Part shown: positions 8,379 through 13,899 of the stretch, piece by piece
Numbering within the stretch: position 1 is the first letter of the stretch
Layout: every line of letters begins with the position of its first letter
From: Rhodosporidiobolus odoratus
Lineage: Eukaryota; Basidiomycota; Microbotryomycetes; Sporidiobolales; Sporidiobolaceae
Assembly (NCBI GenBank): GCA_034387635.1
Contig: JAOANU010000025.1
Location: 212,049 to 276,048, forward strand
Direction: 5' to 3'
Length of the DNA: 64,000 nucleotides
Notes under the pieces: generated by a model
What the model was told of the DNA's origin: nothing
The model's input: only the letters and a program-made list of their open reading frames with translations
Database searches by the model: none
Translations under genes and position numbers: made by a program

Positions 8379-11309
8379 ATGGATCAGGGTAGCACCCAAG
8401 CCTCTACCAGCACATCACCATCACCACCCCAGCCCGTCGCACCCACCTTAGCCCCCGCTACCTCAGACCCCCCCACCTCGCTGGCCTCGTCGACTACACC
8501 ACCTCCAGACTCAGTACCCAAACCTGCACCAGCCTCGCCCGTCTGCTACATTCACTATGGTCCCAGAAGCGTGAAAGCCCGCATCGACCGCGAAGTTCCC
8601 CTCGAAGAAATCATCAAACAACTGGCAGCATCGGCTCAACTCGCCGTGGCAGAACCCGCAGCCTTGTTTGCCCTCAGAAAAAAGGAAACGGGCGCACTCG
8701 TGACGGAGGAGAACCTCGAACGCATGCTGGCAAAGGGAAACGTGTACGCTTTCTCGTATCTCCGATTTCCTCTTTGGGTGCTGAACTGGTTCGCGCATGC
8801 AGATTCGACCTATGCTCCTCTCCTACCATCGAAGCCGTCGAAATGGTCGACAAGCTCTCGTCTTCCGAGCCTGCCGTCCTCAAGCTTGCCACCTTCAGCC
8901 TACGGACCCTCATCAAGGATCGCGCTTTTCTCGACGAGTTTATCGCAAGAGGCGGACTTGACGCTCTCCAAGAAGCGATCAGGAAGAGCAGTGGCAACAC
9001 TCTGGCATACTCCCTGCTCAGTCTGCAGAACCTGCTCGAGCTGGAGGCGAGTGCGTGGACCAGCCTCGAGAAGAGCTTCATTGCCAGAATTGTCGAAATC
9101 ATCGGTGCGCTGCTCCTCTTCTAGCCTCGTCGATCCGAGTCCCTGCTCAGACTCGTATCGCAGCTACCGAGCCCTTGATCAACATCTCCCGTCCGGCCAC
9201 GGCCATTCTCCGTCGAATCGCCTCTCAGCCCGCCCCTTCCGCTACACCCCTTCCCTCCCTCCAATCTCCCAATCCAGATCGCGAGTCACCCGATCCATCC
9301 ACCACTGCAGACTCTTCAGGATTCGCTACCGTCTACTCGCAGGTTCTCCTGCAGCCCAAGTTTCTCGGCATCGTTATCGACCGACTGGGGTCGGGCGATG
9401 TACCGGTTACGGAGGTCAGCCTGGGACTGCTCGAGACGCTGCTGAGAGGGGCGAACGAGGTTGGGGACTTGAGGCTGTCGGATGAACTGAATCGACTGAA
9501 CGCGTGGAAAGTGGTCGGGGTGCGCCTTTCGACTCTCCCTTTCTTCGAGACGGCAGGCTGACGCACACTTCCCTCTCCGTCGACGACCGCAGAAACCCCT
9601 GACTACACCTGCCGTGACCTCCTTGCCTACCCTTCTCACGCTGCAAGACGCCCTGTCCGCCTCGCTGCACCAACAACTGCTCACCCCGCTATCAACTTCG
9701 AACTACACCTACTTCGACTCGATATGGATCGCGTCAGGGTTGGAGGATACGGATGAGACTCTGAGATGGCGAAGACTTGGGTTTCAGACTGAGAGCCCAC
9801 AGATGGAGTTTGAGGAGACGGGCGTGTTGGGGTTGAAGATGCTCGCGAGGTATGCAGGGGAGGAAGAAAACGAGTTTGCCACGGTTTGTCCTGCATCAAC
9901 GTCCCTGCGCCCCTGAAGTGCTTCTCACGAACTTTCTTTCTCATTTCTAGACCATTTCCGATCAATTCACTCGACCCTCGAACCGACGCTGCCCTATCGC
10001 GACAGTCTCCTCCACCGCCCTCATCCTCCTCGCCACCCACTTTGACGTCCTCTCCCCCCCTCCTGCAATCCCAGCAACCACCCCAAATCCCTACCTCTTC
10101 CGCCTCCCCGAGCTACATTCGCTCGTCGTGCAATTCTTCTTGCGCATGTGGAGCGATAGTGGCGCTTCTACCGCTATGCATAACGGTCAAGGCGGGGATT
10201 TCGAGCGACTGACCAGGTTGGCCGCAAGTCAGGTTGCTTTCGTCCTGGCCTCACCTCCTTCTGGAGGAGGAGCTGGAGGAGCCGGAGGGGAGGGAAAGAG
10301 TTGGTCCAAGGTTAGGCAGGAGTTCCTAAGCGCCGATTACAGAACGGTGAGGGAGAGGCAGGTTAGGAAGATGGAGATTGAGGATGATATTCTCAGTAAG
10401 GCGCCTGTGCGGTACGTTTTGCTCTTCTGATGTTTCACCTTGGGCCGTCTTTTCTTTCTTTCCTGGTATTCTGTACTGACTTCTCCTTACGCGCCTCGCA
10501 GAAACCTTCGCGGCCGCCTCTACCTCGAATCCTACGAGTTTGTGCGAGCGCAACGAATAGCCTGCCTCCACGAAGGCTCGTGGTTTCAGGTCGTTCCTAC
10601 CCCGAACAATGGAAAAAAAAACTCGCAACAATCGGGAGGAGCACGGCGGTGGCGGTTCTATCGGTTGACAGCGAATCGCAGAGCGTTGCATTGGGTTGAA
10701 AGTGGGGAGAAGGTACAGGTTAGGCCGGGGATTGATGACTTGCCGGAGAGAGGTGGGCCTTTCCCTCTGCTGTTCCACGGTCGCGAAGGCACTGATATAT
10801 ATTTCTCTGTAGTCGATGTCTCCGCCATCACCGATGTCGTGTCTTCCACCGCCAGCGGTCTGCAGCGTCCACCCCGCCCCTCGTCGAGCGGCAACCGTCC
10901 CTCGAGCGGCCACCGTCCCTCATCCTCCATTTCGCGACCCCTGCAATCTCAAAACCGCATCAGTATTCTCTCTCGCGCCTCCTCCGACACCGTGACGCAT
11001 CCATCCGGCTCATCCGCCTCCACACCCACCTCCCTCACCTTCACCCTACACCTCTCCTCCTCTCCCCCCATGACCCTCCTCGCCCCCTCCCCTACCGTCT
11101 ACTCAGAATGGGTCGACGGACTGGCCCTCCTTCGACCTGAAGGGAGTATCTCGACTCGACAAACAGCAGATTACGTTCAGGCTCTGACGGACATTGGAGT
11201 CAAGATTAAACTGCTGGATTTGAGTGGCGAGAGGGTGGAGATTCCGGCTGGGGTCGAGGTTAATGCTGTGCCGAGGAGTACGGAGTTTTGGTATGCTGAT
11301 TCGTTGTAG
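8379..11309 (+). CDS. ELMO/CED-12 domain protein with C-terminal PH-like domain
   Basis: ELMO proteins act with DOCK-type GEFs or as Arf-family GAPs in actin and membrane control; the fungal role is not settled. The start is the first in-frame ATG (8379). Order: a Ser/Pro/Thr-rich leader; a ubiquitin-like part (CYIHYGPRSVKARIDREVPL); an armadillo-like part (AVEMVDKLSSSEPAVLKLATFSLRTLI, from about 8840); the ELMO core with RRLGFQTESPQMEFEETGVLGLKML (about 9770-9850); then a PH-like segment from about 10500 (RGRLYLESYEFVRAQRIACL) to the end. Exon 1 probably ends at 8743 and joins A|TTC at about 8803. Introns interrupt the gene about six times. Adjacent Gly-Gly-Ala-rich and Ser-rich inserts are low complexity. 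Family assignment is good; exon edges are approximate. Confidence 0.85.
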
Positions 11310-11865: not shown

Positions 11866-13899
11866 ATGCTGTCCACTCGTTCCCTACTCTCCCTCGCCCT
11901 CCTCGCCCTCGTCGGGTCGAGCATCGCAGCTCCCGCGGACCAGCAACAACAAGTTGAGAAGAGGGAACTTCCGTCAAAGACTGTCAACCCGGACTTTTGG
12001 TACGTCTACCTCCTCCATTCACAGCAAGTAGACCGTGCTGAACTCCTGTGTACGACGCTAGGACTTCGAGGGTGAGTTGTAAACATTCCCTTCCTCCCAC
12101 CCAACCCCCCCGCGAAATCTGGTTTCCGACCGGACTCCGAAGAGGGCAGATGTGGGGGAGATAAGTGAGAGAGAGAGAGGGCTGATGGAACAATTGACTG
12201 TGCGCAGCCTATCAAGCGTGAAGAGAAGGCAGAGGATCTCAAGGCTGCGTTTTGGTACGTCCTCTTCTTCGTTTTCGGGAAGTGCAAGGGGGAAAAGATT
12301 GAGCTGACCTAGGCTCTTTTCTTTCATCACAGGACTACGAGGGTGCGTCGACCTTGGTTCCCAAGCTTAGCGAAAGCGCGCGACTAACCAGGACTCGTCC
12401 TGACAGCCCATCAAGCGCGCTGCTGCCCCCGCTGCCGAAGAGCCTAAAGCCGCTTTCTGGTACGTTGCCTCTCAGACGATGTGGCGTGTCTTTACTTACC
12501 AACCGAGGGCTCGGCTTCGCAGGACTACCCGCCCGATCAAGCGCGAGGCGAACGCTGAGGCTGCTGAGCCCGCGCCTGCGTTCTGGTGCGTCTCTTTGTC
12601 TCTACTCGTGCTCTTGAGCTGTGCGCTGACACTGCGGATACCTGCAGGACTCCTCCCGTGCGCTAATCCCACCCGCATCCGGATTGTCTGCTTACCAGAC
12701 TTACCTTTTCTTTTCCTTTCTCCACCTTGCCCATTCTGTAGCCCATCAAGCGCGCTGCTGCCCCCGCTGCCGAAGAGCCTAAAGCCGCTTTCTGGTACGT
12801 TGCCTCTCAGACGATGTGGCGTGTCTTTACTTACCGACCGAGGGCTCGGCTTCGCAGGACTACCCGCCCGATTAAGCGCGAGGCCGACGCTGAGGCTGCT
12901 GAGCCCGCGCCTGCGTTCTGGTGCGTCTCTTTGTCTCTACTCGTGCTCTTGAGCTGTGCGCTGACACTGCGGATACCTGCAGGACTCCTCCCGTGCGCTA
13001 ATCCCACCCGCATCCGGATTGTCTGCATCCCAGACTTACCTTTTCTTTTCCTTTCTCCACTTTGCCCATTCTATAGCCCATCAAGCGCGCTGCTGCCCCC
13101 GTTGCGCCTGCGTTCTGGTGGGTCTCTTTGTCTCCACTCGTGCACTTGAGCTGAGCGCTGACACTGCGCTACCTGCAGGACTCCTCCCGTGCGCTAATCC
13201 CAACCGCACCCCGATTGTCTGCATCCCAGACTTACCTTTTCTTTTCCCTTCTCCATTTTGCCCATTCTATAGCCCATCAAGCGCGCTGCTGCCCCCGCTG
13301 CCGACGAGCCTAAAGCCGCTTTCTGGTACGTTGCCTCTCGGTTGATGTGGCGTTTCCTTACCTACTGACTGAGGGCTTGGCTTCGCAGGACTACGCGCCC
13401 AATTAAGCGCGAGGCGAACGCTGAGGCTGCTGAGCCTGCGCCTGCGTTCTGGTGCGTCTCTTTGTCTCCACTCGTGCTCTTGAGCTGTGCGCTGACACTG
13501 CGGATACCTGCAGGACTCCTCCCGTGCGCTAATCCCACCCGCATCCGGATTGTCTGCATCCCAGACTTACCTTTTCTTTTCCTTTCTCCACTTTGCCCAT
13601 TCTATAGCCCATCAAGCGCGCTGCTGCCCCCGTTGCGCCTGCGTTCTGGTGGGTCTCTTTGTCTCCACTCGTGCACTTGAGCTGAGCGCTGACACTGCGC
13701 TACCTGCAGGACTCCTCCCGTGCGCTAATCCCAACCGCACCCCGATTGTCTGCATCCCAGACTTACCTTTTCTTTTCCCTTCTCCATTTTGCCCATTCTA
13801 TAGCCCATCAAGCGCGCTGCTGCCCCCGCTGCCGACGAGCCTAAAGCCGCTTTCTGGACCACCCGCCCGGTCCGCAAGCGTGTCCTCGTCGAGGAGTAA
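11866..13899 (+). CDS. Secreted Kex2-type repeat peptide precursor, 18 exons (258 aa)
   Basis: Exons: 11866-11999, 12062-12071, 12208-12254, 12333-12342, 12407-12459, 12523-12585, 12648-12657, 12742-12794, 12858-12920, 12983-12992, 13077-13117, 13179-13188, 13273-13325, 13389-13451, 13514-13523, 13608-13648, 13710-13719, 13804-13899. All 17 introns are GT-AG and the frame stays open (777 nt). The product has a signal peptide (MLSTRSLLSLALLALVGSSIAA), a first KR site, then 11 units each ending PIKR (the last ends VRKR), and a short VLVEE tail. Every unit carries FWT[S/T/P][R/P]P[I/V] before the dibasic site. The N-terminal halves alternate between Ala/Pro/Glu types such as AAAPAAEEPKAAFW and EANAEAAEPAPAFW. 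There is no Cys and no CaaX box. This architecture matches Kex2-processed repeat proteins (alpha-factor-like or RiPP precursors). Whether it is a pheromone, signal or modified peptide is unknown. Confidence 0.85.
12407..13856 (+). repeat. Tandem repeat of exon-intron modules in the peptide gene
   Basis: The exon that begins CCCATCAAGCGC recurs with starts at 12407, 12742, 13077, 13273, 13608 and 13804. The spacings are 335, 335, 196, 335 and 196 bp, so 13077 to 13608 and 13273 to 13804 are both 531 bp apart. Introns are repeated as well as exons: the three intron classes have lengths 63, 61-62 and 84 bp and near-identical sequence in each copy. The 335-bp unit is a 53-nt exon, 63-bp intron, 63-nt exon, 62-bp intron, 10-nt exon and 84-bp intron. 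The 196-bp unit is a 41-nt exon, 61-bp intron, 10-nt exon and 84-bp intron. The pattern implies recent unequal crossing-over. Confidence 0.9.

Follow-up and report, generated by a model that had tools for sequence, protein, structure and literature searches.

Farnesylated pheromones of the rhodotorucine type are made as repeat precursors by red yeasts of the order Sporidiobolales, and the locus described here raises the question of what a repeat precursor of a different make is used for in Rhodosporidiobolus odoratus. Its predicted protein shares with the rhodotorucine-type precursors the repeat layout and the Sporidiobolales host, whereas it has neither Cys nor a CaaX box and carries a signal peptide. 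The whole stretch of DNA that was analysed (the window; 64,000 nt) corresponds to C25:212049-276048 of the 24.8-Mb, 45-contig genome, the window end being the contig end, and positions given without a contig are those of the window. The explanation that best accounts for the whole, with a probability of roughly 0.55, is that the gene encodes a Kex2-processed repeat protein (KEP) of R. odoratus releasing linear peptides that are used outside mating, a function that we infer.

The gene lies on the plus strand at 11866..13899, where the joining of exons from the sequence reproduced the 18-exon gene of the preliminary description, with 17 introns and predicted splicing. The script-joined exons keep one frame from the start ATG at 11866 to a stop codon ending at 13899, and yield a coding sequence of 777 nt for a protein of 258 aa with zero Cys. 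GT...AG borders are present in 17/17 introns, and a loose branch-point-like YTNAY, a motif common by chance, lies at most 60 nt from the acceptor in every one of the 17. The exons are as follows:

11866-11999, 12062-12071, 12208-12254, 12333-12342, 12407-12459, 12523-12585, plus strand: exons 1-6, in-frame coding sequence
12648-12657, 12742-12794, 12858-12920, 12983-12992, 13077-13117, 13179-13188, plus strand: exons 7-12, in-frame coding sequence
13273-13325, 13389-13451, 13514-13523, 13608-13648, 13710-13719, 13804-13899, plus strand: exons 13-18, in-frame coding sequence

Translation of these exons gives a precursor in which each unit consists of a spacer, a core and closing basic residues (separated by hyphens below):

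11866..11931, plus strand: signal peptide MLSTRSLLSLALLALVGSSIAA, its end estimated from the hydropathy profile; identical in the homolog P0001
11932..11964, plus strand: short pro-region PADQQQQVEKR, closed by the first KR, from the translation
11965..12219, plus strand: unit 1, ELPSKTVNPD-FWTSRPI-KR; introns 12000-12061 and 12072-12207, microexon 12062-12071 (10 nt)
12220..12418, plus strand: unit 2, EEKAEDLKAA-FWTTRPI-KR; introns 12255-12332 and 12343-12406, microexon 12333-12342
12419..12544, plus strand: unit 3, AAAPAAEEPKAA-FWTTRPI-KR; single intron 12460-12522
12545..12753, plus strand: unit 4, EANAEAAEPAPA-FWTPPPI-KR; introns 12586-12647 and 12658-12741, microexon 12648-12657
12754..12879, plus strand: unit 5, AAAPAAEEPKAA-FWTTRPI-KR; single intron 12795-12857
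12880..13088, plus strand: unit 6, EADAEAAEPAPA-FWTPPPI-KR; introns 12921-12982 and 12993-13076, microexon 12983-12992
13089..13284, plus strand: unit 7, AAAPVAPA-FWTPPPI-KR; introns 13118-13178 and 13189-13272, microexon 13179-13188
13285..13410, plus strand: unit 8, AAAPAADEPKAA-FWTTRPI-KR; single intron 13326-13388
13411..13619, plus strand: unit 9, EANAEAAEPAPA-FWTPPPI-KR; introns 13452-13513 and 13524-13607, microexon 13514-13523
13620..13815, plus strand: unit 10, AAAPVAPA-FWTPPPI-KR; introns 13649-13709 and 13720-13803, microexon 13710-13719
13816..13881, plus strand: unit 11, AAAPAADEPKAA-FWTTRPV-RKR; core without intron
13882..13899, plus strand: C-terminal tail VLVEE and stop, from the translation; same tail in P0001

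The preliminary description had already read a Cys-free, CaaX-free secreted precursor in a basidiomycete, with a signal peptide, a first KR and 11 units (ten PIKR, one VRKR) sharing FWT[S/T/P][R/P]P[I/V], and this reading was borne out. The hydropathy profile over residues 1-33 is consistent with a signal peptide, the KR occupies residues 32-33, the translated exons hold the same units, no Cys occurs in the 258 aa, and R. odoratus belongs to the Pucciniomycotina, Sporidiobolales. One detail was corrected, in that the core of unit 11 is uninterrupted and the other ten are intron-split. The cores comprise FWTPPPI (five copies), FWTTRPI (four), FWTSRPI (one) and FWTTRPV (one), every unit being closed by KR, and the spacers are of even length (8, 10 or 12 residues) in 11/11 units.

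An N-terminal signal by hydropathy, 11 near-identical motifs between dibasic sites and a kexin encoded in the genome agree with the features by which a KEP is recognised. That the protein is a secreted precursor of multiple peptides is held with very high confidence, and its assignment to the KEPs with scarcely less. The earlier suggestion that it could be of an unrecognised kind found no support, since KEPs are a named class with published alpha-factor-like members in basidiomycetes, as described in the text of PMC7329392, PMC6339444 and PMC9769878. The survey in PMC7329392 gives 7878 KEPs in 1345 of 1461 strains, a mean of 5.30 per basidiomycete strain, and most KEP types as confined to one genus. 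Terms for the cores (FWTTRP, FWTPPP, FWTSRP, FWTPPPIKR) were not found in the main text of published papers, although supplementary KEP tables may list the protein or a relative; no paper was found that joins "Kex2-processed repeat" with "Rhodotorula" in its main text.

Could the predicted exons be spurious, read out of a tandem repeat that is decayed or does not code? Exons of 10 nt are hard to predict, and the splicing is itself a prediction. We give this explanation next to no weight. With a slash marking the intron, the FW/T intron pattern matched 12 times in the whole 24.8-Mb genome, ten of the matches being the ten such introns of the KEP gene and two lying elsewhere, versus 6 matches for the reversed pattern used as control in the same genome; the repeat array is therefore not due to chance. 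An independent annotation of R. odoratus moreover contains P0001 (hypothetical protein JCM11641_001612), and the old units of the array retain their core, with codon changes that are synonymous, although their introns are unrelated; both observations speak against an artefact.

P0001 is the sole homolog found; its signal peptide, tail and cores agree with those of the precursor. When its units are paired by order with those of the precursor, 4 substitutions are seen, all in spacers and 0 in cores, the extra residues in P0001 unit 2 being set aside. These extra residues coincide with the position of intron 3; either the gene model of P0001 is imperfect or P0001 differs there. P0001 has 7 units versus 11 in the precursor, which, in proteins so much alike, suggests fast change of copy number. 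Homologs were sought with the full-length precursor (scoring limited to the 7998 candidates with the most shared words), with residues 32-73 (2 candidates) and with a shorter composite query (6 candidates, all above E 10); there was no homolog beyond R. odoratus, and hence no sign of deep conservation, these searches relying on shared 5-residue words that diverged relatives could escape. Confinement of the FWT family to genus level fits the KEP class, most types of which are found in one genus in the survey text (PMC7329392).

The gene is single copy in the genome, and 711 bp of the array, used as a DNA query against the genome, matched the KEP gene alone. The pattern T..RP[I/V]KR matched 9 times (3 in the KEP gene and 6 elsewhere; reversed control, 5), and the 6 outside matches were rejected as paralogs, 0/6 being preceded by FW on translation. 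A WATTRPIKR-like reading at C17:460332, single and with neither FW nor repeats, was taken as chance. With regard to PF08201 (BssC_TutF), the precursor scores 43.5 bits and P0001 30.1 bits at a cut-off of 25, but zero single stretches pass, and the scores are almost surely an artefact of summed short repeat matches. Automatic annotation may mislabel both proteins by this score.

A constraint on the peptide is suggested by a comparison of the units with their introns. In the cores of the ten PIKR units, amino-acid differences are confined to positions 4 and 5, and the codons for F, P and I and for the final R differ synonymously, a count that rests mainly on units 1, 2, 3, 5 and 8, many units being recent copies. 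An intron lies within the Trp codon (TG/G, phase 2) in 10/11 cores, and a second one lies before the Pro of PIKR in 7 of the ten split cores (units 1, 2, 4, 6, 7, 9 and 10), leaving a 10-nt microexon (GACTCCTCCC or relatives) whose predicted joins at the exon junctions of the gene model read ...TTCTG/GACTCCTCCC/CCCATCAAG...; units 3, 5 and 8 have the first type only and unit 11 has none. For representatives of units 1, 2, 3, 4 and 7, the observed identity of introns was set against 200 shuffles. First-type introns were at about shuffle level in 9/10 pairs (an identity as high as the observed one arose in 13 to 154 of 200 shuffles), with three pairs borderline (13, 17 and 22 of 200), as were second-type introns in 5/6 pairs (117 to 196 of 200). 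The exception in both sets was the pair of units 4 and 7, with 90.6% and 88.0% identity and 0/200 shuffles, and by their sequence these two units are recent copies. Because the introns of the older units have drifted to approximately shuffled similarity while the core residues persist with synonymous changes, the comparison points to selection on the peptide. Likewise, with the P0001 match, introns mostly drifted to shuffle level and synonymous change in the codons of F, P, I and R, a real gene at 11866..13899 is confirmed at the level of sequence, its splicing being predicted.

The recent history of the array is marked by a further feature:

12639..13832, plus strand: recent tandem duplication of unit blocks with their introns; 132-bp family, spacings 335, 196, 335 and 196, larger period 531 bp

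The 132-nt family comprises 5 copies at 95-100% identity, and to judge from these repeats the array has grown by block duplication with introns carried along. Each unit measures a multiple of three from phase 2 to phase 2 (10+47, 10+53, 10+41 or 63 nt), which allows whole units to come and go with the frame kept; copy number would shift when unit blocks, introns included, are duplicated unequally. Intron lengths are divisible by three for introns 3, 5 and 8 and the 7-type introns. Intron retention could yield other products from the gene, because introns 5 (12460-12522) and 8 (12795-12857), of 63 nt each, leave the reading frame open if retained. Retention of the second-type introns starting at 12658, 12993, 13189, 13524 and 13720 (84 nt each) would end the protein at FWTPPVR-stop. 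What appears distinctive of this gene is that 10/11 cores are intron-split and that 7 of these contain a 10-nt microexon. A literature search of limited depth gave no recognised precedent for introns within every repeat unit, and the word "intron" is absent from the main text of PMC6339444 and PMC7329392.

With regard to maturation, the enzymes in question were found in the genome at family level. A kexin is indicated by a P-domain match (PF01483) over the cut-off at C3:1186642-1186992, the adjoining ORF having kexin as its best PDB match (E 1.1e-11). Serine carboxypeptidases of family S10 account for 11 matched stretches on C1, C5 and C13, a family-level assignment in which Kex1 is not singled out. 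PF00930 matches over the cut-off at C38:17605-18603, with weak PDB matches to DPP4/DPP6 (best E 3.1e-4); the genome is thus read as encoding one relative of the DPP-IV/STE13 type, a candidate for spacer trimming. In the proposed route, kexin in the Golgi would cut after KR, a Kex1-like carboxypeptidase would strip the basic residues to leave peptides ending in Pro-Ile or Pro-Val, and a DPP-IV/STE13-like protease would trim the N-terminal spacer by two residues per step, most surely in the two AAAPVAPA units. The products would be linear, for the most part FWTPPPI (encoded 5 times) and FWTTRPI (4 times), with FWTSRPI and FWTTRPV as minor species.

That trimming by dipeptides proceeds as far as the FW is given an even chance. 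The spacer dipeptides end in Ala or Pro in 41 of 60 cases in register versus 38 of 60 when shifted by one residue; X-Ala/X-Pro runs throughout the spacer in 2/11 units (units 7 and 10), units 1 and 2 have few such dipeptides, and unit 1 has 0/5. Since the in-register excess is this small and unit 1 has none, Ala/Pro richness by itself may account for the apparent pattern. The weak register and the paucity of X-Ala/X-Pro in units 1 and 2 would suit mature products that are full spacer-plus-core peptides of 15 to 19 residues, made by kexin and Kex1 without STE13-like trimming. Against this alternative, which we consider somewhat unlikely, the spacers vary (units 1, 2, 7 and P0001) while the 7-residue core is constant, spacer length is even in all 11 units, and a DPP-IV relative is encoded.

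With the same caution as to register (41/60 vs 38/60), the precursor probably belongs to the alpha-factor-like subgroup of KEPs known from basidiomycetes. KEPs with alpha-factor-like X-Ala/X-Pro spacers, the STE13 signature, are published from basidiomycetes in PMC6339444 and PMC9769878, and the text of the latter names examples from C. cinerea (KEP 490115; QYKAPSW, QMRPPSW) and from Pleurotus (KEP 1091723/1439342; ...AADW peptides). Mass spectrometry has detected peptides of basidiomycete KEPs, among them 7-mers released from KEP 490115 in P. pastoris; STE13-type processing to 7-mers such as QYKAPSW is reported there for a heterologous host, and STE13-type products are also reported in Pleurotus (PMC9769878). 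Like these KEPs, the R. odoratus protein has a signal peptide, short cores that recur between dibasic sites, spacers rich in Ala and Pro and a predicted product of 7 residues, and its host, too, appears to use prenylated mating pheromones (PMC9769878, PMC6339444). It differs in that FWT..PI has no visible likeness to the published cores, with Trp near the N-terminus and theirs at the C-terminus, and in that its spacers are only partly X-Ala/X-Pro; its 10/11 intron-split cores may be a further difference. As partly set out in PMC6339444, MF-alpha1 of Saccharomyces cerevisiae offers the same order of KR, Glu/Ala-rich dipeptides and an aromatic-led short peptide, and enzymes of its Kex2, Kex1 and STE13 types occur in the R. 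odoratus genome at family level. Unlike ascomycete alpha-factor, the R. odoratus precursor has another core, a basidiomycete host and many introns, and the genome gave no STE2 match, nor did any control genome.

The KEP architecture, common to dikaritin precursors, and the aromatic FW pair in the core would also be compatible with a dikaritin-type RiPP whose cores are cyclised by UstYa-family oxidases. We judge this very improbable: UstYa had no match in the genome (nor in any control genome, so that its absence is unproven), and the neighbours look like housekeeping genes. Dikaritins (ustiloxin-type RiPPs) are alike in having a KEP-type precursor, and Tyr is usual in their core, whereas the R. 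odoratus precursor has no Tyr. Neither UstYa/DUF3328 nor another RiPP tailoring-enzyme domain was present among the 30 window ORFs scanned (29 of 80 stop-to-stop frames of at least 170 residues, and one shorter), and with these two results the earlier option of modified RiPPs is left unsupported. A DUF3328 gene lies near only 6.1% of basidiomycete KEPs according to the survey text (PMC7329392). Upstream of the KEP gene the neighbourhood holds:

10431-11306: PH_12 protein by profile match, probably ELMO-like by inference

Downstream lies a kinase, pieces of which score under the curated cut-off for Pkinase and resemble kinase chains of the STE20/SPS1-related type (E 1.7e-4). Among the matches over the cut-off elsewhere in the window are HEAT repeats, of PSME4 type and others, as well as kinesin, PTPA, PX, GRAM, WD40 and Nop. 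The ORF at 37542-38723 matches Scm3, a centromere protein, just below the curated cut-off (24.1 vs 24.3 bits).

Could the precursor, then, supply the mating pheromone of an alpha-type system within this basidiomycete? Its layout is alpha-factor-like, and the idea has been raised for similar basidiomycete KEPs in the text of PMC6339444 and PMC7329392; we nevertheless find it quite unlikely. STE3 is located at C17:385349-386339, found by the same method that gave no STE2 match in the genome, a method by which no control genome matched STE2 either, so that the absence of STE2 is unproven. Two identical CaaX pheromone-like ORFs lie on the C17 minus strand, 3.3 kb from STE3, with starts at about 382085 and 381133 (952 bp apart), each with five repeats YPAVG[Y/C]TYNTC and the end CTVA; they come from a scan of 80 kb around STE3, which flagged unrelated low-complexity frames too. 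We take these ORFs to encode CaaX mating pheromone by their likeness to rhodotorucine, and the rhodotorucine pattern NGCTVA itself has 0 matches in the genome. STE3 and the two ORFs probably constitute the mating pheromone locus, and the KEP gene sits on C25 among housekeeping genes. The contrast with farnesylated pheromones drawn in the preliminary description is thereby upheld, CaaX pheromone-like genes adjoining STE3 on another contig and the precursor being free of Cys and CaaX.

Once released, the peptides would serve as extracellular signals in a process distinct from classical mating. A signal outside mating is made more likely by the CaaX pheromone-like genes next to STE3 on C17, as opposed to C25, and by the missing STE2 match, and we tentatively prefer it over an antimicrobial or other use. 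Two points weigh against a signal, the STE2 search having yielded no candidate receptor and the C. cinerea knockouts cited below having looked normal. The main rival is a role against or towards other organisms, in which the same KEP releases Pro/Arg-rich, FWTTRPI-like peptides that are antimicrobial and hit competitors or otherwise act on other organisms. Rapid change of copy number, 7 vs 11 units, would suit selection on dose, and KEPs without an axenic knockout phenotype may serve biotic interactions, C. cinerea KEP knockouts having no visible phenotype in the text of PMC9769878. However, FWTPPPI, which is predicted to be the commonest peptide, lacks any basic residue and would be just 7 residues long if trimmed, and the core residues are strictly held over 11 units, more as in a receptor ligand; this role is accordingly rated as doubtful. 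As to the non-mating signal, number and FWTTRPI/FWTPPPI ratio would be tunable without frame break because the units are frame-keeping blocks (10 + 41/47/53 nt or 63 nt). It is a rather bold extension, with small odds, that an unprenylated alpha-factor-like signal runs parallel to the farnesyl pheromone through a non-STE2 receptor, splicing and duplication tuning the ratio of the two ligands FWTTRPI and FWTPPPI.

Overall, the KEP gene provides a neat case of constraint, in which a peptide core outlives its introns and block duplication alters copy number between close genomes. It bears on why basidiomycetes keep alpha-factor-like precursors beside prenylated mating pheromones, a question to which the texts of PMC6339444 and PMC9769878 relate. 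With a single-copy gene, a culturable yeast genus and defined, synthesisable candidates of 7 residues, the question of basidiomycete alpha-factor-like precursors becomes testable.
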